Source: Homalodisca vitripennis
Taxonomy: Eukaryota; Arthropoda; Insecta; Hemiptera; Cicadellidae
Reading direction: 5' to 3'
Length of the DNA stretch: 64,000 nt
Assembly (NCBI RefSeq): GCF_021130785.1
Contig: NC_060213.1
Span: forward strand, 71,258,001 to 71,322,000
Position 1 is the first letter of the stretch. Each line of letters starts with the position of its first letter. This document shows positions 27,085-60,187 of this stretch, piece by piece. The position numbers and the translations under genes are program-made. The notes under the pieces were generated by a model, which worked only from the letters and a program-made list of their open reading frames with translations, was not told the origin of the DNA and did no database searches.

Positions 27085-28227
27085 CAGTATTCCGTAATAC
27101 GTCGAGAATAAGAGTAAAGATATTTACTGTAAAGTTTTCTCTCAAAGAAATGAATATTCAACGTGACGTGCTGGATAACACAGATAAGAGATTACGGTAT
27201 TCACGTTCGTTTTGATCCCAGGCAAGATTTATCCGTGTCATTCTCCTGGACATGACGTGGCAAAGTCTCTCCCTGTGTTCGATATGATATGGATCTAGCA
27301 AATTAGTTTTTTTTATTTACAAATAATATGAAAAAAATACCTCATACATTGTAAAAGAACTTTTAACCTGTAAATACTTTTTTTATTACCTAGTGTATTT
27401 TATAAAACGTTATCGAGGTAACAATAAATTGTAACACAACTATATATTGTACAAAATTTTCAAACAGCTTGGTTTGATTGAAAAAAGATCAATTTACACA
27501 TCATATTATAAAATACTAACACGTGAACGACGCCCGTTTTGAGTTTGTTTTTATAATAAGTGTATATTTATGGTAATTTTAATTTACTCCAGTCTTAGTT
27601 TTTGTTGCAATTTTTACCCTTTTATTAGATTCCCTGACTAAAGGGAATATATTTAAATGGACACGTTTGAGAAGCCAGCTAGCGTCAAAATATAACTGAG
27701 ATGGGTTCTATACAGTCTTTAATTTTATAATAAAATTTAGTAACTTTTTCTTTGATATATACATCAAAATACGGATCAAGGCCTGTATACTTAATATTGA
27801 CTAAAAATATACTTTTTCATATCATTAGCATATTTTCTCCATTTGCGCACAACAGTAATTGCAGAAAAGTTTGAAATAAGTTCGTTATTATCATGTTTAC
27901 CCTATCCTTTCAAGACTCATATATTTATGTAAATTAATTAAAAATAGTCGTTACATTCATTAAATATATGGATGTGTTTTCATAAAACAATGTTTTCATG
28001 GAAAGTAGATTGAATACATGATTATTTTTAATTATGGCCTTCATTACTAGTATTATTCATTATTTAATTTAGTTAATGCGTTGTTTTGTTTATACGACTA
28101 TTTAGTAACCCCTAAAAAGTACACGAACATGTAGAACCTCATTAATGTTGCAAAAAAGAACTGTGCAAGTAAGGAGATCTCTCTTTCAAGAAAAACTGAG
28201 GCAGACATGTGTACTTTTTATTCACAG
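27085..28227. repeat. Island F, copy 1 of 3 (27,085-27,270), then AT-rich spacer
   Basis: The island proper is 27,085-27,270: CTGGATAACACAGATAAGAG, ACGGTATTCACG, TTTTGATCCCAGGCAAGATT and TATCCGTGTCATTCTC. The same blocks in the same order occur at 41.13-41.25 kb and 44.06-44.25 kb. The beginning (GTAATACGTCGAGAATAAGAG) matches only the 44-kb copy. 27,271-28,227 is spacer that aligns weakly with 46.5-46.68 kb near its end (ACGAACATGTAGAACCTCA against ACGTACATGTAAACCTCA). Confidence 0.7.
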
Positions 28228-28335
28228 GTACATGAAAGAGAAGAAATATTGTCCTCACACTTCCAAAGGTTGAATAGAGGGTGGAAGGAGGATTCTGTGA
28301 CAATATCAATACTGCGTCCCTAGAAACATTATGGC
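28228..28335. repeat. Island G, copy 1 of 2
   Basis: Matches 46,679-46,784 with about five differences in 106 aligned bases: GAAAGAGAAGAAATATTGTC, AAAGGTTGAATAGAGGGTGG, AAGGAGGATTCTGTGACAAT, CTAGAAACATTATGG. Flanking DNA is far less similar. The plus-strand frame that is open here is stopped in the second copy, so protein coding on that strand is unlikely. Confidence 0.85.
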
Positions 28336-29486
28336 TCCTGTATCTTTCAGGGAGGTTTCTTGAATAATTATCAATGATATCATTATCATTTAAAATCTAA
28401 TACCGTTGTTTACGTGTTTTGTGAGTTCTTTATAGACTGGTTGGTAACTGAGAGTTTATTTATAAATATTAAAACATTAGAGAGTGTGATTCATGGATGC
28501 TTTCAATATACATAAGAAAATGTTTATAGTCGCAAAAGACTATATGCGTTGCGGAATTTATCTATTTTTAAATTAAATAACAACTTCATTAAAGAAATTT
28601 TCTTTTGAAACAAACCAGTTAAGCTCTCGTCAAATATACTGAAATAAACATATTGGAGATTCCGTTTAGTTATAGAATCTTTAGTTATAGTAATCAATTC
28701 AGTGACACAATTGATTATATTGTACATTCCCCTCATGTTTTTGTGTTTGTCACCACTCAAAGACCAGAATGTAAGGTATATAATTTTTAAACAGAAAGAT
28801 GACAGGACAAATGATGGCAAGGTGGGGAAACATCAGCAGCAGTGTCAGACCGAGACTAATGGAGCCAATATGTGGCGTACTACAAGCTCCGCTGACTTTA
28901 CCAACTTTCTTGCTTTTCTCTAAGTAAGTAAGTTAATATCTGCTATCACCCATGTCCGGTTTGATATTTCCGAAAAAAATCCTGTACAATGCAAACTACA
29001 TCTGCTTTTTGTAGCTTGTTATAAATAAAGATTGAGCTGTGATATAAATTATGCTAAAAGTAAATGTTTTTTTAATAATTAAACAAACCAAATATGACTA
29101 ATCATCATACGAGTATTCCCTTTGGAGCAGCAAAGAAATATGGCACAGTTTTGGAGTTTGTTGCAGAGAAAATATATATAATGCAATAGTTAGTATATAA
29201 GTGTAGAAGTAAATAATGGACTAGTAACAATTTAATTTATTTCACGTTTACTCAGACCCAAAAAATCATACAAGACAAAAATGCATTCCTAAACTTTCCA
29301 AGATATATAACGTTTCGTTGGAAGAATGAGTAATGAGGATTCTTGTCTACCAAATAATATATAAAACATATTTCCAAATAGACTGCAATATTACATGTGA
29401 AGTCTATTTTGGTAGGTGGGTTCAAGATATACCATTAAATGTATTATTGTCACTACCAGTAATAAACTAGTTAAGAGACATTTTAC
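28336..29486. other. AT-rich spacer, no gene seen
   Basis: 28,430-28,510 aligns weakly with 46,870-46,950 (GAGAGTTTATTTATAAA against GAGAGTTTATATATAAA). The overlapping opposite open frames at 28.5-28.9 kb have no recognised product. Confidence 0.4.
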
Positions 29487-29632
29487 GGCAAAGAAGCAGA
29501 GCACAACGTGCAATAATAACTTCAATGACCGTATATGGATGTTTTACTGTTATGTGGGGCGATGGAAACTCAACGTGGTGGCATAAAGAGGACATTAAAG
29601 TCGTATATTTAATGTGTATCTCGCACACTTCA
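29487..29632 (-). repeat. Island H, copy 1 of 2
   Basis: Core TATATGGAT(AT)GTTTTACT, CGATGGAAACTCAACGTGGTGG and CATAAAGAGGACATTAAAGT match 52.54-52.69 kb. Minus-strand frames in both copies share SSLCHHV and VKH, but a 2-bp indel in the middle of the alignment shifts them relative to each other. A second matching stretch follows at 29,695-29,840 (GTTTCTAAACATACTGAGTACAATCA; CATACTGTAATACATGCAGG), corresponding to 52,990-53,130. Confidence 0.75.
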
Positions 29633-30139
29633 CAATACCATATATGGATAGAACTCAACCCTGTCAATATGAGTAACTACTGTGAGAAAATTGCGATAAA
29701 GAGGTTTCTAAACATACTGAGTACAATCACACTTCATTTTATCATACTGTAATACATGCAGGTCAATTAAATGAACTATAGGTTTGATATTTTTAAGGCC
29801 AACTCATCGAAGCCTAATACACGACACGTGGCCTGGGTACTCCCACCTCGTATTAACAACTGATTCAAATTATTATGAAAGCATAGGATTTAGTAGATTG
29901 TCACGCAATACATTTCCCATATTGGCGAATTCCTTGGCGAATATGGCGAATATCATTCGATGAGCTGTAAAAATGTACTTCATGTACATATTTTAAATGT
30001 ACATGAGTTTTAATTTTTAAATAAATAATATAGAACCCAATAGCATGTACATCATATTAAAAAATATTTTTTTAATATTCTCAGTTTAACCTTACCGACA
30101 CCGGGAAATCACACAGTCAAGAAACGTGAAATATTACAT

Positions 30140-30174
<35 letters not shown>

Positions 30175-30800: not shown

Positions 30801-30978
30801 AAACCGGGAGATAAAACATATAAAGACTATAAAAAGCAGGAGCTGACTGAGAATAACCGCACAAAGGTTTGTTATTGGATAATCTGAGCCTGCAAATAGC
30901 ATCGTAATATTGTGTCTGGATTCCATCATAAACATCTTCTTTGTGTCCATGAACCTTTCTGGCATAACCGTATAACTA
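30801..30978 (-). repeat. Island D, copy 2 of 3
   Basis: CTATAAAAAGCAGGAGCTGACTGAGAATA, CGCACAAAGGTTTGTTAT, GGATAATCTGAGCCTGCAAA, TCTTTGTGTCCATGAACC and ACCGTATAACTAA match 55,322-55,511 with about 85-90% identity, and 16,447-16,650 more loosely. CTATAAAAAGC has the form of a TATA box, but no transcript start can be shown. Confidence 0.85.
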
Positions 30979-32180
30979 AAAAATCCACGCCAACAGTTGA
31001 TGCGTCGTTGTTAATGTTGAGACAATTGAAGATTTTTTAAGCTCCTAAATGCACTTTTTCCGAATTAATTAATATTGAATTGACACACATTGCATTATAA
31101 CACCTAAATAGGCACATTGGACTTGGGATTAAGAGGTAAATTTGATTAAACGCGGTTTCATTTTATATTACTTTATTACACATACATTGTTATTTTAAGT
31201 AACAGAAGTTATGTAACATAAAATTATTTACTTAAACATTGTCTCACATAATAAACGTGATGTAATAGAGGTATTAAAAGATATTATTAGATGCTATGCA
31301 ATTAGTTTACTTTTTAGTTTTTAATATAAAATTACATTAATATAAGTTTTTAAAAGTAAATTTATAATCCTATTTTTAACTAGTCTAAGGTTCCAGTGGT
31401 TCCATTGAAAACATTTCCATTTTTTATGTGAGACTTTACAGATAAAGTACATAACATCCTACTTGTGACACGTATTACACTCTAAATCATGTATGACACA
31501 AGAAAAAATGTTAGTGAGCTCTCTCTAACAGTGTTTTCCTTAATTATGATTAACAGGTATTAATGTTCAAAAACTAAATTACTTGTCGTGTCTATTAACA
31601 AGGACGTTGTTAGATATTGTAATACCATATGAGTGTTCAGGAAGAGAATTAAAACTGATATAATAATAAATTTGACAGAATGATCTAAGAAAGAAGATTT
31701 AGGAATGAGTTAATGATAGCTATTTCAAGTTCTGTCTTTGGCCGTAGCACTTATCAGTACTATGTACCTTGAAATCGATATTTTGTTATAAGATCTACCG
31801 AAAGGTCAGTGTAAAATGAGGACGCATGTAACAAGGTTTTAAGGGAACCGATTTCACTGCATAACACTGAAAATTCAGTTTCGAGGGAAAAGCAAAAGCT
31901 TAGGTGTCTGGACCCTTGAATATTCATAATTCAGGTTAAAGCTGTTTAACAGTAATTTTATACACACTTCAAATGAATAGCAGGAGTCATTAACCCTAGA
32001 AAACGTTTTCATACGTAAAAAATCCCATTAAAAAAATAAATATCTTTTAAAATGTAAATTTATTTAATTAACATGATTTATGGACAGTTTTCCATCTGCC
32101 AGGAATAACAGAACTACAGTTTTAAATTCGCGTGGCTAAAACGTAGACATAACAATGCACTTACTGTAATTAAATTGTAG
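30979..32180. other. Non-coding spacer alignable to 55.5-56.75 kb
   Basis: CAACAGTTGATGC, ATAGAGGTATTAAAAGATATT and ACATCCTACTTGTGACACGTATTACACTCT correspond in order to 55,530-55,900. No gene. Confidence 0.5.
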
Positions 32181-32355
32181 GCAAGCGTTTTCTCTGACAA
32201 TCCACCCTCTCATTCTCATTCCGAGTTCCTGAAGTTTCCTATTTGACTGAGTGAAAAAGATAACATTGTCAGAGGAAATCAGGCATATCATCTGGTGAGG
32301 TTTAAATTTAAATATATAAAATGTGTAAAAAGTCGAACATGCTACTGTCTACTTC
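32181..32355. repeat. Island L, copy 1 of 2
   Basis: CCCTCTCATTCTCATT, GTCAGAGGAAATCAGGCATA, CATCTGGTGAGGTTTAAAT and CGAACATGCTACTGTCTACTTC match 56,752-56,934. This copy also contains a 10-bp inverted repeat (CTCTGACAAT 32,192-32,201 with ATTGTCAGAG 32,265-32,274) that is not preserved in the second copy. Confidence 0.75.
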
Positions 32356-35754: not shown

Positions 35755-36030
35755 TTTGACCGAATTCCTTGCATCTTTGCATTACTGTGAGTTACCTGTT
35801 ACAGTAGTATCGTTTTCCGAAAGTCGACTGAGTGGTTCGTACTGCGAGATTCGTAATTTCAGTTTCGTAACGTTGGTAACAGTTCCAAAAAATCTTTGAT
35901 TGTAGCGGTGACCTTTTACGTTATTTCTGCACATAACTCTGTAACAGGAACGGTGGTCTCTGACCGAGTAAGGGCTTGTTACAATTTAATTAGTCTAAGT
36001 GCATTGCTCTATATCCTGTTTGGCCACGAA
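35755..36030. repeat. Island P, copy 1 of 2
   Basis: TTTTCCGAAAGTCGACT, GGTAACAGTTCCAAAAAATC, CTGTAACAGGAACGGTGGTCTCTGAC and TTTAATTAGTCTAAGTGCATTGCTCTA match 57,410-57,685 (TTTTCCAAAGTCGACT, ATCGGTTCCAAAAATT, GTGGGCTCTGAC, TTTAATTAGTCTAAGTACATTACTTTA). An even more diverged piece may lie at 41.64-41.76 kb. Confidence 0.65.
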
Positions 36031-37420
36031 ACATATTATACACAGTTATGTAAATGCCGTGATGTAACAGATCACATATCATTTTTATAATTAAACTATA
36101 CTGTTTCTATTAATTGAAGTCAACTTATTTTCTATAAGGAGAAAACATAGTTTTTACGTGTTAAAAAATATCAAAATCATAAATACTAAATGCGATTAAT
36201 TTTAAAATACAATAATTTCCACTAGCAATTATTTAATAAAGTTATCAGTAACAGAATTAATCTTCTTATATGCTGTTGTTTGCAATATTGCTGAATTTTA
36301 AACCAAATCAATGAAATAGTTCTAATATAAATATAATTTCCTATGAACCTAATACATTTTACATCAAATATAAAAAAATACTAAATTAACACATACAAAT
36401 ATAATATACAGTCCTTATTTTTATCACGGTATTTGCGTGTAAAACATTTTTGTATAAAAAAACACTATTAGGCCATTATACGATTACTCTCGTTTATTGT
36501 GTTTTATCTCTACTGCAATACAAATACTTAAACTAACTTCTTACTAACATGTTTCATGCAGTTCAATTTAGGATATTCCTTGTTATACCATGCGTATTGT
36601 CTTTTATTTAAGTAATACTTTTCATTTATAGTAGTGTTTAACTGTTCAAATTTCAAATAAGTTATATATTAGTTGTTTAATCCAAATAATGTAACTGTGT
36701 TAGTAAAAATTTTAAAGTTAAAAAAGTGCAAAAGTTATTTAGGTTAAAACTAAAGTTATTTTAAGTTAAACAATTTTACTATGTAAACGCTATTCGGATA
36801 ATTGTACGTATCTCCAGATATAAAGAAATTGCTTAAAAACAAATCAATTAATTTGCGGTGGAGTATAAATAAATAAAATATACTTAGTATTTAAAATTGT
36901 ATTACATTTCAATGTAACCGCAATATTAAACGTTTTTACTTTTAATATAGGTGACTACAAAAAGTAAATATTAGTTGTATAAGGAATACATAAATAAGCC
37001 AATACAACGAAATAACGAATAAACTAACAGAACTTAATACTATTGCTTGATATAAATGTGGTGGAATGAGGAATTCTTACTCTCCACACTTTAAATACAA
37101 AGATACCATTGGATTTTTTCTTTGGTAGTTTACATTTAATTGGTCTTAGGAAGTCAGGTATGCAAAACTATACTACCAAACAAATAATAACTTTATATAT
37201 TTATTATTAAAAAAAGTTTAATAAAGTTTATATAAACTTTTATTTCTAATAAAAAGCTGTCTAAGCGTAAGGTCTCTAAAATTATAAAGTTTTACCACTG
37301 AAATACCCCAAATATTGTATGGTTGCACCAGACGTGATTTATGTAAAAGTCTGTAAAATAACATCGGGCCTATTCCTCAAAACATACAAATTAAACGATA
37401 AGGGCATTGAAAATAATGGA
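36031..37420. other. Non-coding spacer alignable to 57.7-59.44 kb
   Basis: ATTTGCGGTGGAGTATAAAT is specific to this copy, but CCAATACAACGAAATAACGAA, CAGAACTTAATACTATTGCT, AAAGATACCATTGGA and CTGTCTAAGCGTAAGGTCTCTAAAAT all have counterparts in the same order at 58.96-59.30 kb. The block duplication is therefore continuous and not limited to the islands. No gene. Confidence 0.6.
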
Positions 37421-37571
37421 TTCAGTACAGTAAGGCTACATAATGAAACAGAGGCCTGGCAGGGATGCAGTAACAGTGGGGGAGGAATGTACTTCTCTCT
37501 CTGACTCCAATTATTGATTCCTACTACCTGCTCATCGCACTAGAATGTGGATATTTCAGTTGCAATAATTA
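37421..37571 (-). repeat. Island M, copy 3 of 5
   Basis: About 140 of 150 bases match 59,447-59,596. The core 37,437-37,536 has only a few differences (CATAATGAAACAGAGGCCTG, GTGGGGGAGGAATGTACTTC, TCTCTCTGACTCCAATTATT). The reverse strand aligns without gaps for about 50 bases to the LINE-derived stretch next to the 43.1-kb copy, so this module may descend from a LINE tail. Confidence 0.85.
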
Positions 37572-38056: not shown

Positions 38057-38200
38057 CAGTCACCCTCGAAAAACTAAACACAGAAGATAACAGACTGTTT
38101 GTACTCTGCCTGAATCATCAATCTCCTTGATAAATTAAACTTTGCTACTTTGTCTTCCTTAACTTAGAAACTGTCAATTACACTTTATAATTATCTGCAA
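38057..38200 (-). repeat. Island N, copy 1 of 2
   Basis: GAAGATAACAGACTGTTTGT, ATCATCAATCTC, TTGATAAATTAAACTTTGCT and ACTTTGTCTTCCTTAACTT match 60,041-60,187 at about 90%. On the minus strand both copies keep a frame of about 30 codons (VKEDKVAKFNLS[RK]RLMIQ...EYKQSVIF), with three codon differences: Arg/Lys, a silent Ile codon, and Ala/Ser. This is the best coding candidate among the islands, but it is too short to settle. Confidence 0.8.
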
Positions 38201-40756: not shown

Positions 40757-41129
40757 CAAACAGTTTGTATATTGTGTCGACATACATACAGGTACACATA
40801 CAGAGATGGACATAAATGAAGTTTTTCCAAGCCCTTAAGTGATACGCTTCGCTGGCGCTCAGCTAAATAGGTAGTGTAGATCCCATTTATATAGGATATT
40901 ACCATAGAAAAGTACAAAATATTAAACACTATTTTCTAATTAGAATACCTTAGTCACTAATACAAAATATTACTTGTGAATGTAACCATATGTATCGATG
41001 TTATTAAAATGTTATTCGGAACCATGCGAGCTTTCTCAGAGGAAAATATGCTTTTCGAATATGTATGTCCTCTCTGATACAAAATAAAAGAAGAAAAGTA
41101 TTTATATTTTGAATTTTATTATATAAAAA

Positions 41130-41250
41130 TGAACAGCCAACGTAGCGTTCTGGATAACACAGAGAAGAGATCACGGTATTCAGGTACATTTTGATTCCAG
41201 ACAAGATTTATCCGTGTCATTCTCTTGGATTTAACGTGATGCGGCAGTCT
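41130..41250. repeat. Island F, copy 2 of 3
   Basis: CGTTCTGGATAACACAGAGA, AGAGATCACGGTATTCAGG, TTTTGATTCCAGACAAGATT, TATCCGTGTCATTCTC and GGATTTAACGTGATGCGGCA follow the order of the copies at 27.1 and 44.1 kb. Confidence 0.75.
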
Positions 41251-43095: not shown

Positions 43096-43200
43096 AAAGG
43101 TTATCGGCTAAACAGAGATCCGTCGGAGATGTAGTCCCAGGAAGAGAAGGAATATAACTCTCTTAACAAATTCAATCTTTGATTTCCATTGCCGCTCGCC
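43096..43200 (-). repeat. Island M, copy 4 of 5, abutting a LINE fragment
   Basis: CGGCTAAACAGAGATCCGTCGG, GGAAGAGAAGGAATATAACTCTCT and AAATTCAATCTTTGATTTCCATTGCCGCTCG align to M at 37.4 kb. On the minus strand it is entered directly from LINE-like coding sequence (RNVINRKRRAAMEIKD). Confidence 0.55.
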
Positions 43201-44054: not shown

Positions 44055-44245
44055 ACATCATTTTGTAATACGACGAGAAAGAAGAATAAATATGTATTTA
44101 CCGTCAAATTTTATTTCAAATAAATAAATATTCAACGTAGGGTCCTGGACAAGTCGGGATAGAGATTGTAGTATTCAGATCCGTTTTGAATCCGCACAAG
44201 TTTATCCGTGTCGTTCTGGATTTGACATGAAACGGCAAATTTGCC
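44055..44245. repeat. Island F, copy 3 of 3
   Basis: TTTTGTAATACGACGAGAAAG, TATTCAACGTAGGGTCCTGG, TTTATCCGTGTCGTTCTGG and GACATGAAACGGCAAA match the 27.1-kb copy in order. This marks the start of the second long block. Confidence 0.7.
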
Positions 44246-44796
44246 TTTTGTATTTCATTTAATACTAGTCTTACAAGTTTTTTTTTGTTAGTTTTAAGGT
44301 AAATCTAATAACGTTTTAACAGTGGTTTTCTTGTAAGTATTTATTTTAAATTCTGTCTTAATTTATTCAAACTTATTTAAAAAAGCAGTGAACCCCAAAT
44401 AGATCAAAAATAGGAAAATCAGATTGTGTTTGTAAACATAGATACATTTGCACATAATATAATCCATGATTGTATCATTTTGATCATATTTAACTTGTTC
44501 GTCCATTGCCACATTCATATGTATAATTACGGTTTCTAACTACAACCAATTACTGGATAAACATGAATATTCTGTTAAAATACAAAATAAGTAATCCTGT
44601 ACCTCCGTATTCAGTTTTGTTGTGGATTATTATTTAAAAATATATACCGCATACACATAAAGAAATTATTAAACAAATGGTGTAATATTCACCAGAACAA
44701 AACTCTCATATTGCAATATTTAATCTCCTATTCTTTAGATGTTTGAGTGAAGTTATTGTCTAGAGCAATACATTTTATGTGCCAACATCAGTAATT
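44246..44796. other. AT-rich spacer, no gene seen
   Basis: Nothing supportable. Confidence 0.4.
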
Positions 44797-45036: not shown

Positions 45037-46678
45037 TGTACATTTCCAACATAAAATATAAATATAATCGTTAAAATCAAATGACATAATTTAAAATTAT
45101 AATAACCAATGCATAATCTAAAAGTGGAATAATAATAATTTACTTAATACTTATAACAATTTACTTCAGATCTACCCTAACTAAAAATCCATAGTCTACG
45201 TTAAAACACGTTTTTCACAGATTACATAAGAAGATTTAAATGCGGTTTTAAAATAAAAACTGTGTTACTGATCAAATCATAATTTTTATAATAACATGTA
45301 TTTTACCTTCAAAGTGTTCTAATTTTGTTTCTAGTATTTGAACATATGCATACTTAGCAATTGTACTATAATTTTGGTTAAAATAAATATTCAGATAATA
45401 CTTTATACAATCTTTTTCATGTTCAACTCAAAAATATATTATAATGCTACTAGTAATGTTGTATAAGAAATTTCCTTCATCATTTTAAAACGTTGGTGAA
45501 GTTAAGGTGATTGAATAATATAGAATCTAACAACACAAATCTAACACAAATTTTACACTCCGTATTTTTCTGTCATTAGGTTTTATACTGATTACTTATT
45601 TTCTACTATCAGGGAACAGATGTTAGAGTAAAGTTAAGCGGAACAAATTGGAAAAGTTTCAGTTGTGGTTAAGGATATAGTTGGCTACGATCCCTCTTTA
45701 TCGCCACATTTCCTTTAATGATAGCGTTTGTGAAAACATTATATTATAAATAAATCCATAGTGCAGCCAGCCTCATTTTGTCCAAAATGGCAGTTTTAAT
45801 TTCAGACTCGTCGTGTTCAATTTATTATCTGCTATATTGGTAATACACACACTTATTGGAATTATTGGTAAATTTATTGGTTATTTATTTATTATTGGTT
45901 AATTTATTGGTAAATCTATAATTACAGTAAGTGTAACTTTATAAATTTTGATGTGCTTGAATCTTGTTTAATACACCATATTAATGGTTATACTGGTTGA
46001 ATAAAATGAATTCAAAAGATTATTATACAAAAATAAAACTTAAAAAAAAAAAACGAATTAATAACTTCCATAACTTTCGATCAAAACAGGTATTTATATT
46101 CTTAGTATTCAATTATGTATTTATTGTATTATTGACACAATAGTATTATAGTAACATAAAATGAGATAAAAAATTTAAATTATTTCCTGGATGCAAAATA
46201 GTTTTAAAACAGTCAATATATCCATAAACTTTACAAGAAAGGTTTGATTGTTAATACTCCAGCTCGTTAAAACATTCACTTAGGGTTATTATTTCTCTCA
46301 TCACAGAACTCTTTTAATGGTCTTGAGAATATCTTTCTATTTATAATGGGTTTTACGTTTATGACCTATTTAAAGGATAAGATCCAACAAATGCATCTGA
46401 ACAGTATAGTTTTTGGACTGCAGTAAAAATAACATTTTTAATATTTTATATTAACAGACATATTTTGTTACGTAGGAGTTAGATATGCTTAATAAAATGT
46501 ACGGGATTGATTCCTTAATGCTTAAATTATGCTTTATTTTATTCAAACTAGTATTTGAAAACCCTCCGAGAGTGCACGTACATGTAAACCTCAATGTATA
46601 TTCCAAATAATATGTGTAAGTAAGAATATTGTTATTATAAGAATACTTAGGCAGACTTGAGTCCTTTTAAATCACAGG
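45037..46678. other. AT-rich spacer with TTATTGG repeats
   Basis: 45,853-45,917 repeats ATTATTGGTTAATTTATTGG-like units several times. 46,540-46,678 aligns with 28.08-28.23 kb. No gene. Confidence 0.45.
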
Positions 46679-46784
46679 CGTGAAAGAGAAGAAATATTGT
46701 CCTCACGCTTCTAAAGGTTGAATAGAGGGTGGAAGGAGGATTCTGTGACAATATCAATACTGCGCCCCTAGAAACATTATGGCG
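46679..46784. repeat. Island G, copy 2 of 2
   Basis: See the copy at 28,228-28,335. Differences include CACGCTTCT for CACACTTCC and GCGCCCC for GCGTCCC. The match drops sharply after ATTATGGC. Confidence 0.85.
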
Positions 46785-49700
46785 CATGTTGCTTTCATGG
46801 ACGCTTCTTGAGTAGTTAATAATTATATCATAATAAGTTTAAATAGAATACTATACGCTTGTTTTTTTTGTGTGTTCTTAAGAGACTAATTGACAAGTGA
46901 GAGTTTATATATAAAGACTTACAGGTAGGTAAGGGTGATTAATGCATGTTTACTATATACAGCTGAAAAAGGAAATAATCGCGTAGTAATAATTTCATTT
47001 ACAGATTGTGTAATATTTATGTGCAATACGAATTGTTACAATTTTTATCATATACTAACAGTTTTTTTTTTTTTGTTAATTTTAGACTCGTTAAATACAC
47101 TTTTAGAATGCGAAATTGTGGATTTTTCAGTTATAGATTATATTTATTGTGAGGTAACTTTAAATTAGACATAGGGCTCATTTTTATGTGTTTGTCAACG
47201 AGGTAAATATTTAATTACATACGACCATATACTTTTCTCATTTTGGAAGCTTGTTCTGTATTTTTACTGAATATAACAATTATTTCGAATACATTTTCTT
47301 TAACACTTGGGTCGGATTTAAAACTTAAAAGTTACCTATAACAATATTTAGTAAAAGAGCATTATAAATGTTTTATTTATGAAAACTGATGTGTGATGGG
47401 TTCTAAGAAAGATGACCCTATTTTTTGTTAAAGAGATTGACTTTGCAATTGAGAATTAGTAGCCATAATCCGTTTATGCAACACTCCACTAACTCGCCGC
47501 AATGAAGATACTGTGGAACCATTAGTAGGATAAGATATACGTAATAAAACCCTTCTGTAAGCTGATAGAGCATATATATTTTACTAAATGAAGTGATCAT
47601 CGGTTTCAAAAGTTGTGTAAGGTAATTTGTTGCTGGTGAAGTTCCTATAACTCCGAGTTTGGTTTATAACGAACAATCCTCTCCAAAAGAAGTCCTGTTC
47701 GTAATAAACTGTTTCAGGAAAGTAACAATCCTAAGGATCTTTTAACAAAAGTATACCACTACACTGTAAATGTTTTCTTGATTCAGAATGAACCAGTTAG
47801 GAACTGTTCTCATAGTAATTCATATGGGCATACACTCAGACTTTGCAAGATTTTGTTGAAAAGTTTATCACTGCTATAGAATAAGACAGTAACAGAATAA
47901 GTAGTTAAATTAACTAGAACATACAATGAATTTCTTGATATTATTGTGACCCACCGTCATTTTGCTTTTATAGTACACTTTTGTTTAAAGACATATTATC
48001 ACAGTTATGTCTCACTTATTCAACAATTTATACATAGTCAATGAGGATGGAGAGTGATTTCACACTCAGAACTGAGCAAGCTTCTTGGAGTGTGATTATT
48101 GATGAGAGAACCTAGAGAACATCCTCGTGGACTTTGAGAATTTCTATAATTTTGGCACCGAACCACAATCATTCACTCTCGCCTTTATCTTGTCACGAAA
48201 AAAAATAATCCGCGACATAGTGGAAGAGATGGACATTTGTTCAGTAACTAACTTCAAACTAATTTTGGTAAATAACAAAACACTCTTATATGTACCATCA
48301 GTTGAGACAGCACTCATAGTAACCACATGTGATTTGGAGAGTCCCGATGTTACAGCAGTGTTTTGCAATGAATCCAGTATATATACATAAAGATTTAAGC
48401 AATTATCAATATTACCAATGAATCCAACATTCAACCCGATTCAACCTAACCTTTAACATTACTTGGCTTATACAGTTGTGTGTTTGGTTGTGTTCTAATT
48501 TATATTCAACATGTTTTGTAATGTCAAAGACTCATACAAACTAAGTTTCCCAAAGTCGGGCAACACATGTTCGCCGTAACCGCTGCAAGAACAAATTTGG
48601 GAAGTTTCATTTTGTATTTAGGGCAATATTAGCTACGAGCTTTCTTTATAAAATCTTTTATCCTTTCCCTGAATTTATAAAACAAAATACTAAAAACTAA
48701 TTATTTTTATCTGAAAAGAATGATTGATGCAAAATCTCACAGTAAATTAAATAAAAAATGTAGCTCCTGTAATCTACTAAAAGATTAAACTTGAGTTTAT
48801 ACGACTATAAATTTGGAAATGGTGATGAATGGATACATTTATGGAAAACACAAAATTGTAGAAAAATATTTAATATGAATTCTAGGGTTTAGGTGTATTT
48901 TATGTCTTTTAACTATATTTTGCATTAATTTTAACTTTCCTTAACTCCTAACTTCATTTTTACATTTAAATATGGCCATGTTTCAAAAATTTAGATGCTA
49001 GACGTAACGTAAGAATTGTCAAAACTTTAGTATTTCTAATATTGTGAAAGGACTCCGGAGATCCACCAAAATCCGAGAGCATACGACAGCAATAGATAAA
49101 TAAAGATATATAGGTCTTAAAAGAGTCTATTCCGTAAAGTGGCTAAAACATATGCCATTCATTTATCCATCTATATATCTATGAATGTAACACATGATAA
49201 TAATGTGAACTAATGTATTGTTCGAAATATAATTTAAAATAAGTGATTCGGTATTTGTTTTTGTGACTGAAGAGTGTTAAATTCAAATTCAGTGTTTAAA
49301 TAAAAATTAAGTTTATACTCCGCGTTGATAGAATCTATGCTGTTTTTAGAAATATCCTATGATTAAATCTGTGCAACACAGTAGATGTCCATTTCAGGTG
49401 TAATTTTAACCGCACATTTCGAGATATTAAAGTAAAAAGGTCTGGTGGATTGTTCTTGTTTAGAACGGAATTTGAGATGGCGTTGGAGGTATTTTTCAAT
49501 TGTAAAGGCGTTTTAAAGCGAGGTATTTTCCCCCTCGCTTTCCCTAGATGAAGCTTGAACAGAGCTAGCCTAGCCCTCTCAAAAGATGTCATGATCAAGA
49601 TAGTCCCCGCTACCCCTTCTCAATGGCTCCATCCCTAAAATGAATATCATGGTACAATCAGAGCAGTGCAAAGGTCGATCAATGACAATGTTAAATTCTA

Positions 49701-49858: not shown

Positions 49859-50098
49859 TTTGGTTTTGTTGATTACTGACCGACAATTTTATTCCATGAA
49901 TAGTAACATTTAACACAGAGGGACACAAAATCCAATCAACCACAAGCGATGGAGATGGGTCTGAAGTAATTGGATTCAACAGCGTTAACCCTGCAAATTG
50001 AGTTATAATACTCGAAACGGGCTTCAATAATGGAATATCAACTGGCCATGTTTACGCAGAAGGTACTCTCATTACTACCATAACTTACACGAGTTTTA
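49859..50098 (-). repeat. Island E, copy 3
   Basis: GGAGATGGGTCTGAAGTAAT, AACAGCGTTAACCCTGCAAA, TTGAGTTATAATACTCGAAA and AATGGAATATCAACTGGCCA match the copy 1 kb further on. On the minus strand there is a GTAAGT at the start, TTTGCAG about 100 bases later, and then an open frame (LTLLNPITSDPSPSL...NVTIHGIKL). The two neighbouring copies are about 75% alike in DNA but only about half alike in that protein frame, so the frame is probably not under coding selection. Confidence 0.75.
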
Positions 50099-50164: not shown

Positions 50165-51345
50165 ATATTTGGTTTATCTTCATCAGGATAATTTCTAGTT
50201 AAAATTCTACTCAGAGTTCTTATGTTTCCTTCTTTGTGTTTTCTTTTATTACAGTTTATTTCAGTTAAGCAGTTCTTATTTTTTTACTAAAATAAACAAT
50301 ATACCCGTTACTAAATGTTTCGCAAAGACATTTGAATGAGTAACACAAACAAAGAAATATAATATATATATATATATATAATTTTGTGGGACAATGGCGC
50401 ATCTGGCCATTGTATACTTTTGTCCATACATGTCTTTACATCTTCAACTTAAAGACTTACATTTCATCAAGTATTTTTTCTATATAATACCCGTACATTT
50501 ATGACATAAACAATACAAAAGACGTACATATTATTGTAAAAACACTGTAAGAATAAGTTCGAGAATCATAATTTTTTATTTTGTTTGAGATTTAAATACT
50601 TAGTTATGACTTTGCCAAAATGTATTGCTGTACACTTAGGATATGTATGTTTAACACATGTAATAATTACTAAAAACTGGAAAAAAATTAGATTGTCCAT
50701 CAGAAAAATTTCTGGTTAAAATTAAACTCAGTTTTCTTTTTTCCCACTGCCTGAGATTTAATTTTAATTTTAGTTAATAAGTTATTACTGTGAGACTTAC
50801 ATAAACAATATAAAAATTACTAAATATTTCTGAAAAGACAGTTAATAAGAACTAAATGAGTCATTGGGTTTGGTTGATCACTAACCAATTTTCTTCCACT
50901 AATGGTAACATTAAACTCATGAAGACACAAAATCTCAGCAAGCCAAAGCAATGGAGATGGGTCGGTAGAAGTAGGTTTAAACAGCATTAACCCTGCAAAT
51001 TGAGATAAAATACTCGAAAGGAGCTTCAATAATGGAAAATCAACTGGCTATATTTACGCAAGAGGTACTTGTTACTTCCATTACTTACATGAGTTTCGGC
51101 TCCTGTAATATCGTCTTGCCTTCTTATCTGGGCGTTTCATGATGACTTCATTTTTCTTGCAGACATATTTGCCTTTTCCTTCATCAGTGTACTTTCCAGT
51201 TAACAATATATTCAGGATTCTTCTGTTTCCTTATTTGTGTATTCTTTATGTTACCGTTTATTTCAGTAAAGCAGTTCATATATTTCACTAAAATAAACAA
51301 TATAACTGTTACTTAATATTGCGTAAAGACAGTTTAAATGAGTGA
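50165..51345. repeat. Tandem array of half-kilobase units
   Basis: A segment with CATCAGGATAATTTCTAGTT, then TTTATTTCAGTTAAGCAGTT and AAATAAACAATATA, recurs at about 50,165-50,340, 50,690-50,850 and 51,165-51,340, so the spacing is about 0.5 kb. Island E sits before the first and before the third. 50,362-50,381 is a TA run. The array appears once in the window and seems to be a local expansion within the second block. Confidence 0.65.
50866..51100 (-). repeat. Island E, copy 4
   Basis: AAAGCAATGGAGATGGGTCG, AAACAGCATTAACCCTGCAA, ATTGAGATAAAATACTCGAAA and AATGGAAAATCAACTGGC. The minus strand again has GTAAGT (from ACTTAC at 51,084-51,089) and TTTGCAG (50,992-50,998), about 95 bases apart. Confidence 0.75.
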
Positions 51346-52540
51346 CATATACAATGCGATACAAAAATTTATAACTTTGCGATACAATGGACGCATCTGT
51401 TCAGTGTGTACATTTGTGCATGCATATATCTATGTATTTAATTATAGACGTATATATACATATTACGACGTCATATTTGATTCAGTAACCCGTAAATTTC
51501 ATGGAAAATTACGTACATAGTATTGTAGAAACACTGTACATGTTGGTTCACGAATAATATTGTTCTGAATTTGTTTGTGATTTAAAAAAACTTTTATCAC
51601 ATTGCCAAAGTAAATAGCTGTACACTTAATCATTGTATTATTGATTCTGGAAATATACTTTCGCTAGAGTCATTTTCCTATTGAATCGACTCATCCCTTA
51701 AAGAATTTATACTTGTTAATAAATTCTTGGTTGGATTTATAACATGAACAGGAAAAACGAAGAAAATAAAAAGTGAAAAAGGCTTACCTTTTCGTTTTAA
51801 CAACTATTAATTACTGAAATTTTATTCCCATTATTCCTTTTTTGATAAATTGAAATAAAATATTTCAATATATTAGATATTATAAAAAGCGGTCATGACA
51901 CAATAAGCAGGTTTTTAATATTCTTTTCTCGTAATTTTGAGCTGCACTTAATTGTACTTTGTTAGTAGTATAGAAAATAAAATTTTACGAAATTGTATGT
52001 TATATTATTCCCAAATAATGGTCTTCCTAAAGCCAAGCTATTTTTTTCTCATTGTCCACAACATACAGGTAGATATTCGTAAACAAGCCAATAAGACTGA
52101 ACATTAAAAATTACGTAACAAAATAACCTAGTTCCGAAAACGCCACAATAAAAAAGATAAAACTAACTAAAAAAATACGCTTCTGGGAGTTTGCCGTTTC
52201 TGTCGCATCTCTATTTTTAGGGCTCTGAGAACTCTCTGCCTCTATTACCCTGGTCACTGGCACATGACGTCTTTAGGATCTCTCATAGTCAATGTCCTCC
52301 CTCCCCAGGAAAAACTCGAACATCGGAAGCCCATAATCTCTGACACCACCCACTTTTCGCAGTTCCAGATCTTTGATGGACATTAGCGTATACATTAAAA
52401 GTAACTTATCGTAATCGTAATAATCCAATTGATATTTGTATTGTTTTGTAAAATGTAAGTTTATAAGTGGATTAAATAGATCCATCACATACCATATAAT
52501 ATCACCACCAATAATAAAATAGCTTATAACAGACATCAAA
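51346..52540. other. AT-rich spacer, no gene seen
   Basis: 52,190-52,340 is slightly GC-richer (CTGGGAGTTTGCCGTTTCTG, CTCCCTCCCCAGG). The minus-strand 122-codon open frame at 52,273-52,641 crosses it into island H and has no recognised domain. Confidence 0.4.
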
Positions 52541-52690
52541 TGGCAAAGAATCAGAGAATAACGTTCAACAATACATTCCATATCCCTATATGGATATGTT
52601 TTACTATCGTGTGTGACGATGGATACTGAACGTGGTGGCATAAAGAGGACAATAAAGTAAGATATATAGTGTTTATCTCGTTTACTTCAA
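52541..52690 (-). repeat. Island H, copy 2 of 2
   Basis: CTATATGGATATGTTTTACT, CGATGGATACTGAACGTGGTGG and CATAAAGAGGACAATAAAGT. The 2-bp difference from copy 1 (GGATATG against GGATG) shifts any frame. The following 52,990-53,130 also matches 29,695-29,840. Confidence 0.75.
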
Positions 52691-55321
52691 GAAATCCATT
52701 AAGGGATGAGAAACGTGCAATAAATTTTATTTTGCACTGAGTCACTAGTGAGTACATTAATGTACATAACTCTTATTCAAACTTAGAATTACCATTTATG
52801 TCTGGCTGTAATCTATCTTGTGAATGAAATGGCGGATAGGCTTGAATCTTTGCAGGAAGATTAGTCTCTAAGTAAAAGAAATCGAGTTCGATAGTCGTGC
52901 ATTTTACTCCATGGTATTTGACTGACCGTTAGCTAACATTTTTACCATGGTCATATTATTAACTATTGTTACAAAGAGGAAATGGCGCGATGAATAAGTT
53001 TCTAAACATGATGAAAACAATCATATGGCATTTTACTATTCTGTAATAAATGTAGTCAATTAAATAAAGTACAGGCTTAAAATGAGTAGGCAAACTGAGC
53101 GAAGCCTGTTACGCGAAACGTGGTGTGGCGTACTTTTAATTTGCGGTAAAAAACTTGAACTAGTTCCAAACTATAATGAATTGATATGGATTTATTAGTT
53201 TGTTACTCCAATAAAATACAAATATTGGCCGATCGTTAGCCAATCCCAACACTCATCGAGGTGGAAAAATTAAATTTATTTCTCTCATTCTATCCGTCCA
53301 TTTTTTGCAAGAGACTTAAAGTTTCACTGAATATTCATTTATATAAATAGAATACTAAACATTGTATGTATTCCACTTAGTGTTGCAGAAAATTGTTCTA
53401 TATTAACTATAATAGCAACATAAAATCACAAGAAAAGAATGTGTAAACTGACTGATTACAAACATGTAATATTTTAATAATTGGTGGAACGGTTGGTATG
53501 ACTTTCGTTAGATTCTTTATAGTCTATCGATTATAAATTGAGTCAGTTTTTTTATATAAAGAAGATCGTGTTCTATTATGGTATATATTCCACCATAGGG
53601 CTTAGGCGTCAGTTAGCAAAGCCTATAGCATATGGTAACATTTTAAAGGTAAATTCATCAATACACAACATTGTGTATAATTTATGTATATATCTCTAAA
53701 TAAGGGTTCTGTAAAACTTCGATTTACGTGTGTAATACTGAATATGTAAATAATAAATTAAAAATTGTAGGGCTACATTAGTTTTAATTTTAAAATTTTG
53801 TGGATTTAATAAAAAAATAAAGGGGTTTGCGTATTAAGAAGAATTGTCAGTCGGTAGGTTATGATATCGAAATGTACTACTTTGGCTACTCTGCTCCTGT
53901 TACTTAGTAAGATAGTAGTTCGATGATGAGTTAAACCTTTGTTGTACTGGATCTTCTATCCCAATGTTTCTGGGTTTTGGTTGTTCCAGATCAGGAAAGC
54001 TGTAGGCTAATTTGTTGGTACGGCTGGGCCATAGCTCGGTGATGTCATCATTTCCGATTTACTTTAGTTTTCTTAGTCTGTACCTAATTTTAAAGTAAAA
54101 AGTTTTGCATAGAAAATTTTAAACTCGTAGTTGCGCAAGACTAGATTGCAACTTTATTAAAGTAATGTAGTAAAAATGCAATCAGTTAGAAGAAATAACA
54201 GTTTCTTGTATAATACTTGTTATTTTCGATTTTACTAAATAAATGATAAATTTCAAATTAAAATTTGAATTATTTTTGGCTGATTTGTGTAATTTTGGAT
54301 TTTAATAAACATTCACTTCGCAGCAAATTGTATTTGAATTTCAAAAATTAACTGATTCACCAAGATCTGGATCAAATCCCACAGTTTAATTTTAGCACGA
54401 GGTGCACAATAGAACTTTGAAAAATATTTTTATTTAGGTGTGATTGATTTTTTATTTTAAGGTGAGAGGAAGCTTAAAATTAATTTGATTTCAATTTTTT
54501 TAAATTAAGGAGCTGATTTTCTTTTTACTAAAACAAATCATTTTATTTTAGGTTTGAATATTAATATTCATGCGAAAAGATTCTTTGAATTACAAATTAT
54601 GAAAAACTGTTCTAATTTTTATGGTAATATAATGATTTAAAATTCAATAGCAAAGAGTTTTAATACATAATATTCCAACTGAAATTAGTTCTTTTTTTAT
54701 TGACTTTTAAATCTGAGTTTAACGTTAAAACACCCCGATAAATGTTCCATTGTCGGTGTTCACCGGTTAAGCACTTCCAAGCATTATTAATACAAAATAT
54801 TTTTATACTGACTTAAAGGGTTGATTATAGTTTAACCCTTGTGACCGATAACCCAAATTACTATAACTACTTATTATAATATCCCATGTACGCTTTACAT
54901 AGTCAACGACTTCTGTAAAATCATGTAATGTTACTGTTTAGGCAATGCTAGTATATTTTATAGTAAATAATTTTTCAGTCTTGATGTTACTGTGTTAGTA
55001 TAAATCTAAATTTAAAATTATTACTACGTTTATATGAGGCTAAAAGTATCAAGCTGCTCTAAATATAAATTTCATTTATACCCAAATTGTACTGTTATTC
55101 GTAATAATTTGATTAAAACTAAGTAGGTACTATTATAATTATTTCGCCTATTGCTGTGTCAATATGTTATTGAAAGTAATGCCATTACAATCTCTTCCAA
55201 ATACTTAAAGGAGGTGATATTGAGGTTAATAACATAACTCGTACATTTAGTAAGACATCACGTAAGAAAATATAGTAGTGAGGAAATTAATTTTCTTGAT
55301 AAAATGGATGTTTAAGTAACA
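52691..55321. other. AT-rich spacer, partly alignable to 29.7-30.8 kb
   Basis: No gene. Paralogy to the first block is visible at 52,990-53,130 and again from about 55,130. Confidence 0.45.
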
Positions 55322-55511
55322 GAAAAAAACTGGGAGATAAATCATATAATGACTTCAAACTATAAAAAGCAGGAGCTGACTGAGAATAGCCGCACAAAGG
55401 TTTCTTATCGGATAACCTGAGCCTGCAAATAGCACCGTAATATTGTTTCCAGATTACTTCATAAACAGCTTCTTTGTGTCCAAGTACCTTTCTGGTATCA
55501 TCGTATAACTA
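55322..55511 (-). repeat. Island D, copy 3 of 3
   Basis: AACTATAAAAAGCAGGAGCTGACTGAGAATA, CCGCACAAAGGTTTCTTATCGG, ATAACCTGAGCCTGCAAATAGC and TTCTTTGTGTCCAAGTACCTTTCTGG. See copies at 16.45 and 30.8 kb. Confidence 0.85.
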
Positions 55512-56751
55512 ACAAAGCTATGTCAACAGTTGGTGCTGTATTCTTAATGTTATGAGCATTTAGGTGTATTATTTAAAAACCTTGTTAATCGTAAATAGAA
55601 GCAGAAGTAATGGAATGTATTTAAGTGTGTTAAAATAGAGATATTAAAAACGTTGTTACATGCGACGAAATTATTGCACTCTTTTAAGTAAAAATAAAAC
55701 GTACAACTACTTACTTTTTTGTGTATAAAATAGTAATGTACAGTATTTAAAAAATGTTTTAAAAAGTTACTTTTTTATCCCTATTAACAGTGATTTGTTA
55801 CAAAATTTTTGATAATTCGTGTAAAAATTTCAATATTGTATAAGAAAATTTTTAGATAATGTATGTAACATCCTATTTAAATACGTATTACACTCTGATT
55901 TGTGTATAAAATAAGTGCAAACTTTACTAGGCTATAACGCTATTGAAGATAGTTTTGTTAATTCATCAGCATTTAGAATAAGTTATTAAAATTATTTTAC
56001 TTATTGTGTCTAATACCAAAGGTGCAATAAAATATTCTAATACGATATAATTTTTTTGAATGGGTATCAGCAACTTCAGATATTGCAATTTAAAAAACGT
56101 TTTAGGATACAGTAACAATAATATGATCAATAACCCATAATAACTATTATATTAATAACAATACAAATTTAATGTACCATTTGATAAAAACATTGAACAT
56201 ACAATTTTAAACTAGTGGAAGATATATGGCAGCACGATGTAAGAATCAAGACTTTGGATGTGAGTTTGAGAAATCGTACGTTCAAACCTTGTCTATAAAC
56301 GTTGTATTTTGTATCAGCCTGTAACGACTCCCCTCCATATTTTGTTTGATAATACCTGTATACTCTCACAAGTCAGTGGACATAAAAACATGCATAGTAA
56401 GAATTGCAAGGGCATCGGACTTTCTCTAAAATATAACTCTATGAATTTAGCTGTTATGGACAAACTAAGCTCAGGTCTATAGGTATTCACCTGTACATGT
56501 TTCAGGTTTACATTTTTTAATGTTACATTATGGCTGCTTAAAAAAAGCAGTAGTTATAAACCGTAGACAATCATAAGCTAATACACGATTTTATTACCTA
56601 AATAAAATAACATTAATTATAAATATGAAGTTAATTACATAAATGATGTATGAAGATTGCTCCATACACCACGATTACTGTAAATAAAAATTTAAATTTA
56701 TGTAGGCAATCTAGTTTTATAAACACTGCACTTGGTCCAATTTTATTGTAT
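55512..56751. other. Non-coding spacer alignable to 31.0-32.2 kb
   Basis: AACATCCTATTTAAATACGTATTACACTCTG and related blocks match. No gene. Confidence 0.5.
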
Positions 56752-56934
56752 GCAAACATTTGCTCCTACACTCTACCCCCTCATTCTGATCTCTAGTTTC
56801 TGAATATCCCTGGTTTACGCAGTAAATAAGAGAACATCATAAGTGGAAGTCAGGTATAGTCATCTGGTGAGGTTTAGATCTAAATATAACAAGCAATCAA
56901 ATTCTATAATATCGAACATGCTGCTGTCTACTTC
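56752..56934. repeat. Island L, copy 2 of 2
   Basis: CCCCCTCATTCTGAT, GTGGAAGTCAGGTATAG, TCATCTGGTGAGGTTTAGAT and TCGAACATGCTGCTGTCTACTTC match 32,181-32,355. Confidence 0.75.
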
Positions 56935-57409
56935 TTTCCTTATTTAATGTTAGATATTATTTTCAACTATTTATAATATGCTCTGACCACATATACTGTA
57001 TATATAAGCTACATTCTGCGGCACATTATTTATAAAATTGTGCTAAAGGAATACATATTTTTTTATATATTTTGTCTAGCTGTGAAAAGCAATCAAAAGA
57101 TTTTAAACCGAAACTGACAGAGCCAGCGATGCATGTATGTTGAAATGTGGGGTGATGGTTGAGGTCAACCATAACTGAATGTAAGATTTACCAATCACTG
57201 ATCATTAAAATTTATTTACCTTATGCAGTTCAATTACGGTATTGCGAATGTAATGCTGAATTCTTGATTTAAGGTATTTCCTAAATTATGATTAAGGTTA
57301 TTTTTATTATCCATTGATAAATTACAATTTCAAAGAGCTTAGAATACTGTAAAGACCCTATGTTGCATTTTACTTGTAAATTTCTTCTGGTAAAACAAAT
57401 CCTTTACAC

Positions 57410-57685
57410 CTTTGTGTTCCTGCGCATTAACTGTTGAACTGGTGTACATATTAGTTTAGTTTTCCAAAGTCGACTACGCAATTATTATAGCAAGTATCAT
57501 AATTTAAAAAAATAGAATCATGTCTTTATCGGTTCCAAAAATTATTAGATATTTTCGCGTTTTTTACGGTGGTTTTGTAGATAACTCTGATCAGAAACAG
57601 TGGGCTCTGACGGAATAAGAAATTGCCTAAATTTCTTACTTTAATTAGTCTAAGTACATTACTTTACCTTGAGTATAGCCATGAC
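57410..57685. repeat. Island P, copy 2 of 2
   Basis: TTTTCCAAAGTCGACTACG, TACGGTGGTTTTGTAGATAAC, GTGGGCTCTGACGGAATAAG and TTAATTAGTCTAAGTACATT correspond to 35,755-36,030. Confidence 0.65.
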
Positions 57686-58320: not shown

Positions 58321-58735
58321 TCACAATTATGCTTCGTTCCTGTACAGATAACAAGGAAAGCGGCATTCAGATATCACGTGTATCGTACATGTCGTACTCC
58401 CCATACTCGCCACAGACCGCAAGCTACGTCATAACGCTGGATCTGACACGCTAGTTGTGGCTGTGTCCAATGCTGGGTGAACTGTAGCTAGACACAAAAA
58501 AGGAAACGCTAATTATGATATAGTGTGCAAATGAGGCGTGGTTTCTCGGTTACTATGCGTTGTTGTAATGACATTGTATGTAGGTCATATTTGGTTGGAT
58601 TGCACCCCTATAAAGGTTTCCAGATGTCTAGGTAATTTTTATTTAGACTGGCTAGGCTTACAAATCCCGGGCTTAGTTTTCAATTTGCGCGAAATATTTT
58701 CATGGGTTATTTATCATTATAGTTAATATGTTTAA
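58321..58735. other. GC-richer insertion absent from the first block
   Basis: About 400 bases (ATCACGTGTATCGTACATGT, CGCCACAGACCGCAAGCTAC, CACGCTAGTTGTGGCTGTGT) have no counterpart at 36.7 kb, although the sequence on both sides aligns. A short plus-strand frame at 58,538-58,726 has a hydrophobic start and a GTAATT after CTAG, but no ATG start and no recognised product. It may be an inserted repeat or a lost exon. Confidence 0.35.
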
Positions 58736-59446
58736 TATGTGAACTTCGCTATTTGGATAAATAGATGGTAGATAATTAACAAAACTGGGGAAAAAGCTTA
58801 AAATCGAACTTATTAATTTGTGAAGAAATTCAACACAGCAAATACATTCAATATGTTTTATTTTACGTCACTTCGATACAACCATTGTATTCAACGTTTT
58901 ACTTATGGTCTAGGTAATTACAAAACTTAACGTATCTATATAACGAACAAGTAAATAAACCGATACAACGGAGTATTAAAAAATTTAAAAGAACTTAATA
59001 ATGTTACTGAATAAGAAAGGAAATGAAAGGAGATCTTCTTACAATCACAATTACTCTGAAATGAAAGATACCATTGAAAATTTAATTAAAAGTTTTTTTA
59101 TTGGTAGTAGTAAAATAGTTATATTGATATAATACCAACAACCAACTTTTCAACATTTATAACATTTAACAATATAACATTTAAGTAAACTTCTATGTTA
59201 AAAAAATGAAATTTGAGTTAATTAACTACAGTGTATTTGTGATAGGACATTTTAAGAAATTTGGAGTATAACAATCTGTCTAAGCCTACGGTCTCTAAAA
59301 TCGTAGATTGAATAAATTTTAAATACCTAAAAGATTGTATGGTTTTATCATACTTGTTATGATTCATCCAAAATTCAATCTAAATAACACTGTATCTGTT
59401 TCGTAAAATACAAATATAACGTTGTTGGGGCAGCGGAAATAATGTA
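58736..59446. other. Spacer alignable to 36.8-37.4 kb
   Basis: AACCGATACAACGGAGTA, AGAACTTAATAATGTTACTG and CTGTCTAAGCCTACGGTCTCTAAAAT match the first block. No gene. Confidence 0.55.
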
Positions 59447-59596
59447 TCCAGTACAGTAATACTACATAATGAAACAGAGGCCTGGCAGGGATGCAGTATC
59501 AGTGGGGGAGGAATGTACTTCTCTCTCTGACTCCAATTATTGATTCTCAATACCTGCTCATCTCACTAGAATGTGGATATTTCCGTTGCAATAATT
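59447..59596 (-). repeat. Island M, copy 5 of 5
   Basis: Near-identical to 37,421-37,571 in its core. See that entry. Confidence 0.85.
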
Positions 59597-60040
59597 ACTC
59601 TATTTTCTGGTACTGTGTTCAGGTACGTTTTATTTGCTGATGTTGAAAATAACATTTTAAAGAATGTAATAAAATAAAGTTTTAACAACTTAGGTACAAC
59701 GTGAACGAGGGTGATGCTATTATTCATGCAAGGTAGTTGAAACTTTTGTTTCAGACATAATATACAATAAGGTTGATATCACTTGGGCTCATAGTTTTTT
59801 CTTATCTTTCTTCTCTGATATGGATGATCAACAGCCAGCACGAGATAAAACATTCATGTATATTTGTTTGATTTGTACAGATAGAAATTTTTCTTTTTTA
59901 TTGTATAATATTTTTACCCTTATGACATAATCTAATTTTTGAAGTACAAAAGATGTACAAAAATATGTAACAAAATTTTTCAAAAGATGTAATAGATCAA
60001 AAATAACCTAAAGTTCAACATCAATTTTGTAATCATTCCT

Positions 60041-60187
60041 AACAGCCACCCTCACAAACTAAACGCCCTCTCGGAAGATAACAGACTGTTTGTACTCACT
60101 CTGGATCATCAATCTCTTTGATAAATTAAACTTTGCTACTTTGTCTTCCTTAACTTGGAACTGTCAATTACAATTTATAATTATTTG
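60041..60187 (-). repeat. Island N, copy 2 of 2
   Basis: See 38,057-38,200. The minus-strand frame VKEDKVAKFNLSKRLMIQ is preserved here. Confidence 0.8.

Follow-up and report, generated by a model that had tools for sequence, protein, structure and literature searches.

What is repeated, and how many times, in a stretch of leafhopper DNA in which short conserved islands recur in a fixed order, and what could have kept those islands recognizable? The stretch in question, here called the window, comprises 64,000 nucleotides of the Homalodisca vitripennis assembly GCF_021130785.1 (contig NC_060213.1, positions 71,258,001 to 71,322,000, forward strand). A preliminary description, made from the letters of the window alone, held that two long blocks share eight islands, designated F, G, H, D, L, P, M and N, and constitute one diverged tandem segmental duplication. 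This observation is correct but understated: adjacent copies lie in the same order and on the same strand, as in a tandem segmental duplication, and the array to which they belong runs past the end of the window. Coordinates in kb or bases follow the numbering of the window (position 1 is its first letter), and negative values or values above 64 kb refer to flanking DNA.

The duplication is apparent from a comparison of the 64-kb window with itself (self-blastn), which was used to confirm both island and spacer matches and in which all eight islands are present twice, in identical order and on the same strand, at 27.1-38.2 and 44.1-60.2 kb. Island F matches at 27077-27264 and 44048-44239 (E = 5e-23), G at 28055-28533 and 46506-46982 (E = 5e-87), H at 29450-29632 and 52502-52689 (E = 6e-35), D at 30755-31018 and 55279-55551 (E = 2e-78), L at 32151-32355 and 56722-56934 (E = 5e-30) and P at 35462-36011 and 57091-57666 (E = 7e-28), and M and N fall within one match (37249-38197 and 59268-60187, E = 3e-127). 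The spacer aligns patchily, and both stretches previously named as examples of this were recovered (30598-30759 with 55060-55214, E = 2e-10; 36825-37111 with 58790-59076, E = 1e-11). When 26.5-40.5 kb was compared with 43.5-61.5 kb by blastn, all 12 plus-strand matches at E <= 1e-5 fell in a single collinear chain, with no minus-strand match. Across the three pairs that can be formed with a third unit downstream, 12/12, 14/18 and 16/32 plus-strand matches lie in one chain, again with none on the minus strand, and reversed-sequence controls for these pairs gave 1, 0 and 0 matches. A 26-kb upstream control (-40 to -14 kb) had no plus-strand match to blocks 1, 2 and 3, and 0, 1 and 3 minus-strand matches. 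Collinearity, a common strand and patchy spacer homology bear out the proposal of one diverged tandem segmental duplication rather than scattered repeats.

Most of the island map below is based on hidden Markov models (HMMs) of the islands, searched over the window and its flanks from -100 to +204 kb. The evidence for each row is self-blastn together with HMM unless otherwise given in brackets.

4824..4930, plus strand: E-type island, partial unit (HMM of E copies, E = 1.3e-24)
15293..15407, plus strand: E-type island, partial unit (HMM, E = 2e-17)
16449..16553, plus strand: D-type island, partial unit, retaining the GGAGCTGACTG core (HMM, E = 5e-13; alignment)
27122..27296, plus strand: island F, unit 1
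28107..28419, plus strand: island G, unit 1, with two consecutive 60-column steps each 0.92 identical to unit 2 (self-blastn, HMM, genome-wide query)
28790..28922, plus strand: island Q, present also in unit 3 and in two B units, with 94% identity to that at 117.9 kb (self-comparison, HMM, genome-wide query)
29445..29648, plus strand: island H, unit 1
30801..31038, plus strand: island D, unit 1, with the presumably TATA-like core
32166..32316, plus strand: island L, unit 1
35770..36012, plus strand: island P, unit 1
37391..37570, plus strand: island M, unit 1
38081..38191, plus strand: island N, unit 1, 93-95% alike among the three units (HMM, alignment)
41105..41277, plus strand: additional island F, lying between units 1 and 2 (HMM, E = 1e-48)
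43080..43222, plus strand: decayed M copy (HMM, E = 2e-8)
44096..44271, plus strand: island F, unit 2
45603..45755, plus strand: decayed X copy, unit 2 (HMM, E = 3e-11)
46560..46854, plus strand: island G, unit 2
48470..48722, plus strand: island X, unit 2, present in unit 3 too (HMM, self-comparison)
49943..50060, plus strand: island E, unit 2 (self-comparison, HMM)
50943..51061, plus strand: island E, unit 2, second copy, within a local tandem duplication
52498..52705, plus strand: island H, unit 2
55326..55574, plus strand: island D, unit 2
56737..56888, plus strand: island L, unit 2
57407..57669, plus strand: island P, unit 2
59418..59596, plus strand: island M, unit 2
60072..60181, plus strand: island N, unit 2

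Island X has no unit 1 match by self-comparison or by the island HMMs. The local tandem duplication in unit 2 covers 49855-51628 (74% over 798 columns) and accounts for its two E islands, and a (TG)43 microsatellite at 43942-44028 directly precedes island F of the same unit.

Self-comparison and island HMMs over the flanks show that the two blocks of the preliminary description are an incomplete count: the full units number three and the related units three, besides several that are partial. The array extends from about -13 kb to about +166 kb (~180 kb), with the window ending inside it. The third full unit lies downstream of the window at 73.6-103.1 kb, with its main islands at 73.6 (F), 76.2 (G), 76.8 (Q), 77.9 (X), 79.95 (E), 94.0 (H), 96.3 (D), 97.8 (L), 100.5 (P), 102.3 (M) and 103.0 kb (N) and with additional copies of F at 82.3, of X at 89.2 and of E at 84.0, 90.9 and 92.5 kb. 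Partial or decayed copies are found upstream at -12.9 kb (H, E = 9e-7), -7.9 kb (D) and -4.8 kb (X, minus strand), and elsewhere at 4.8 and 15.3 (E), 16.45 (D), 41.1 (F), 43.1 (M), 45.6 (X), 105.0 (F) and 105.9 kb (X). Weak HMM matches of M at 10.5, 25.8 and 66.8 kb (E 0.0005-0.0013), of H at 60.5 kb (E = 0.0024) and of G at 109.2 kb (E = 0.0008) are doubtful.

The three related units, termed B units, start at 117.0, 134.5 and 150.8 kb and have elements B2-B5 and E in common. Three long matches between the last two show them to be 92-97% alike, and the first resembles them at about 68-82%. Island Q, the inner island of element B1, is kept in the first two B units, and B6 in the last two, recurring at 67.4 kb between units 2 and 3; this order of elements (Q before E before B6) is compatible with derivation from a single ancestral unit. 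Not entered in the unit map are several HMM matches of B1 that fall outside Q (-63.5 kb, -2.6 kb on the minus strand with E = 1e-21, 49.5, 79.4 and 90.7 kb, and weakly 177.1 kb) and a minus-strand P match inside L (E = 5e-5). Two of the B units contain a 126-base tandem repeat (136065-137188 and 151357-152571). Open frames that we take to be of the long interspersed nuclear element (LINE) type lie in both young B units (142282-146558 and 158821-161711), and the insertion probably predates the duplication of these units, because it is present in both.

Is this content peculiar to the locus? Genome-wide DNA queries against the 2.30-Gb assembly (14901 contigs) were made with D (801 bases), M+N (901 bases), G (491 bases), E (671 bases), Q (142 bases) and a combined B1+B2 sequence, F, H, L, P and X not being covered on their own. 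The first five found matches in the array only (4, 3, 3, 9 and 4 rows, including self), all within 71.26-71.42 Mb of the contig, in a search where the lack of a match does not prove a sequence rare. Hundreds of unlinked copies, which would have spoken for scattered repeats, did not turn up for these islands. Scattered copies are detectable by such a search, because the sixth query does find a dispersed repeat genome-wide: among the best 40 of its 259 candidate matches, 36 lie outside the array, all within the first 384 bases of the query. These 384 bases are a dispersed repeat, and B1 as a whole is therefore no evidence of kinship; Q, queried separately, is confined to the locus. Exact patterns taken from N had no match in viral and prokaryote collections, as expected for animal DNA.

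How much better the islands are kept than their surroundings depends on the measure. In global alignment, identity between units is 70-80% for F, 73-82% for G, 78-81% for H, 79-84% for D, 74-76% for L, 75-78% for P, 85-91% for M and 93-95% for N, with no pair of units closest throughout. Since unrelated 200-mers average 68% (sd 4) in free-gapped global alignment, low global identities are uninformative alone and the local E-values carry the weight; chance was therefore judged by the blastn chains with their reversed controls and by a null with blastn-like scoring. Under that scoring, 60-column steps along the three long matches between units 1 and 2 peak at identities of 0.92 in G, 0.93 in D, 0.98 in M and 0.92 in N, and 12 of 116 steps reach 0.75, compared with none of 213 steps in unrelated controls (mean 0.538, 95th percentile 0.61, maximum 0.68). 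At or below the control 95th percentile are 73 of the 116 steps, and most of the spacer is therefore indistinguishable from unrelated sequence, although some is not. In this comparison, made between paralogues only, the islands are kept better than their flanks. Their G+C content exceeds that of the flanks in 22 of 24 copies, the exceptions being H of units 2 and 3. Within D, the core GGAGCTGACTG, which we take to be TATA-like, is identical in all five aligned copies, two of them in partial units, and is preceded by ATAAAG in three copies and by TATAAAAAG in two.

Might the islands be the many very short exons of a tandem cluster of protein-coding genes? Open frames of at least 62 codons overlap many of them, one frame in M stops (TGA, TGA, TAA) at the same aligned place in three units in an alignment read by eye, changes in the M core number 7, 10 and 1 by phase, and uncorrected phase p values go down to 0.02, 0.05 and 0.06 in the best single 60-base step of X, M and F, respectively. 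However, no overall codon periodicity was found in ten island families (phase chi-square p from 0.08 for M to 0.90), and third positions hold on average a share of 0.335 of the mismatches (single segments up to 0.70) in a set of 258 self-matches with 1085 shared open segments, which overlap, occupy both strands and include transposons. Of 95 internal gap rows, 73 are not divisible by three, and 16 of the remaining 22 occur in E (9 of 11 E copies used). Only one of 65 open frames of at least 62 codons at 26-61 kb matched Pfam (E = 0.009); at 0-26 and 61-164 kb the listed long frames were assessed by reading. By codon periodicity and frame-keeping gaps the islands appear to be noncoding, and coding exons on either strand are disfavoured by mismatch phase, gap lengths and Pfam alike. 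The suggestive frame in M and the long minus-strand frames over D and E were set aside because substitutions lack a phase bias and several E copies have stops or frame-breaking gaps, and a coding cluster is considered very improbable. Still harder to sustain is a decayed large mobile element or dispersed repeat: transposable-element-like open frames do occur around and inside the array, but the queried islands were found at this locus only, whereas the real repeat in the B query was found genome-wide.

The main rival is a tandem family of long noncoding RNA (lncRNA) genes, in which each full unit would be a gene of 11-30 kb, the islands its exons and M-N its long last exon. Consistent with this are the fixed order and strand with variable, intron-like spacing, the 71% identity across the roughly 950-bp M-N block, the core in D, and single plus-strand splice-like sites kept in three units, namely an acceptor at 28227 (scores 10.4, 8.0, 11.5) and donors at 32295 (11.8, 11.8, 5.9) and 37600 (10.2, 11.5, 4.0). 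Yet the minus strand is equally rich in kept splice-like sites, including an acceptor at 37456 (10.9, 9.6, 11.1), and splice scores at the edges of nine island families, a set that omits the G acceptor, stay within the range of 60 column-shuffled controls for both strands (20.8 vs 18.0 on plus, 16.0 vs 18.7 on minus; fractions of shuffles at or above the observed score 0.37 and 0.60). Splice signals show no excess in this comparison, a few strong single sites being kept on both strands; such a gene family is the less probable reading, but a serious one. A structured RNA or microRNA cluster is unsupported by folding or by Rfam: z-scores for unit 1 fall below -3 in 18 of 834 folding windows, 17 of these outside islands, and in the seven of eight islands tabulated (P is not) most lie near z = 0, with exceptions in H (minus strand, -3.6), G (one at -2.6) and F (one at -2.2). 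Rfam gave no match at gathering level in the window, and 14 weak matches at 26.5-61 kb are located at 40.7, 45.0 and 60.9 kb, outside islands; those at 40700-40771 are to microRNA families, on both strands and all below cut-off. It might also be argued that the islands are patches that chanced to stay similar through gene conversion between units rather than through function, as the comparison is confined to paralogues, biased conversion would also yield raised island G+C, and N is 93-95% alike. Unlike the expectation for recent conversion, seven of the eight islands show just 70-91% identity and no single pair of units is consistently the closest, and D copies in partial units retain the identical core; this account is regarded as improbable.

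The explanation favoured here, with a probability of about 45%, is an ancient tandem segmental duplication in which selection has preserved the islands, probably for a role as cis-regulatory DNA. The ancestral segment, whose length may be guessed at 10-30 kb from that of today's units, would have carried short noncoding elements in a set order and gone through several rounds of head-to-tail copying, with unequal crossing-over as the probable mechanism. The spacer would then for the most part have diverged to the level of unrelated sequence and gained transposable elements, and purifying selection would have retained the islands in the full copies, where they most likely act as DNA, either as cis-regulatory modules or as alternative promoters. 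That the islands have a function is suggested by the similarity and order retained in full copies, and regulatory DNA is tentatively preferred over RNA because nothing specific to transcription or splicing emerged. Several observations weigh against this explanation. The lower islands (F at 70%) are near the level of unrelated 200-mers in global alignment, and the spacing between islands differs several-fold in the HMM map. Conserved k-mers common to island families are not above column-shuffled controls (100 shuffles; observed vs shuffled mean 2 vs 5.5, 1 vs 2.1, 11 vs 7.4, the last reached by 22% of shuffles, and 0 vs 0.1), and therefore no common binding-site grammar is seen, a feature not strictly required of cis-regulatory clusters. 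Furthermore, the gene that such elements might control, encoding a G-protein-coupled receptor (GPCR), is a candidate target by proximity only.

This GPCR, presumably resembling insect 5-HT1 and thus serotonin-receptor-like, has plus-strand exons at 198.3 kb (87% to the query sequence, E = 1e-42) and 200.6 kb; a first exon placed at 190.4 kb is doubtful (E = 0.39). As the last island ends near 166.3 kb, the distance to the gene is 24 kb from the doubtful exon or 32 kb from the sure one, making the link directly testable. Among 73 flanking open frames compared with Pfam, two match 7tm_1 (best E 2.2e-26), one carries a hAT transposase domain (3e-9), and four further families, including a second one of GPCRs, are matched by one frame each (E 6e-5 to 0.008). 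The regions screened showed no other recognizable host gene (Pfam frames at 26-61 kb and in the flanks; long frames read elsewhere).

At its core the array is an ordinary tandem segmental duplication, with head-to-tail copies in the same order and strand and high-identity islands in diverged spacer. Tandem duplication is usually studied through coding genes; what looks unusual here is that the units yielded no protein-coding host gene and that the content retained by the three full and the three related units appears to be noncoding. A similar case is that of duplicated conserved noncoding elements near paralogous developmental genes, which are likewise short blocks far better kept than their flanks in paralogous copies, but those blocks accompany duplicated genes, and the copied unit here showed no such gene. 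Tandem lncRNA gene families share a possible multi-exon layout and differ in that the present array has no excess of conserved splice signals. A search of the literature, covering titles and the openings of abstracts, showed nothing of this form among the papers listed. It may tentatively be suggested that this ~180-kb array of three full and three related units represents an undescribed noncoding gene family or regulatory array, kept perhaps for tens of millions of years (a guess rather than a date). On this reading it might control the serotonin-receptor-like gene next to it, and copying would still be under way, given that the final two units are 92-97% alike. With copied and retained content that appears noncoding and units of different ages at one place, the array forms a natural series for how noncoding elements persist after duplication, and allows one to ask whether selection acts on the number of copies of regulatory DNA, or of a noncoding RNA, as such.

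In unit 1, between L and P, an insert of ~1.06 kb (33405-34470) with inverted ends TTAAGGGGGTTCGGTA and a 140-codon minus-strand open frame looks like a DNA transposon. A minus-strand open frame at 62004-62429 presumably represents the end of a Penelope-type element, and a 170-codon open frame at 22143-22652 is taken to resemble a transposable-element protein. An 83-base direct repeat, 98.8% alike, occurs at 7700-7782 and 13050-13132, 5.3 kb apart. Upstream of the window, from -91.9 to -43.9 kb, lies another group of long repeats, apart from the array; most are about 80-92% alike, and among them are open frames that we take to be mariner-like.

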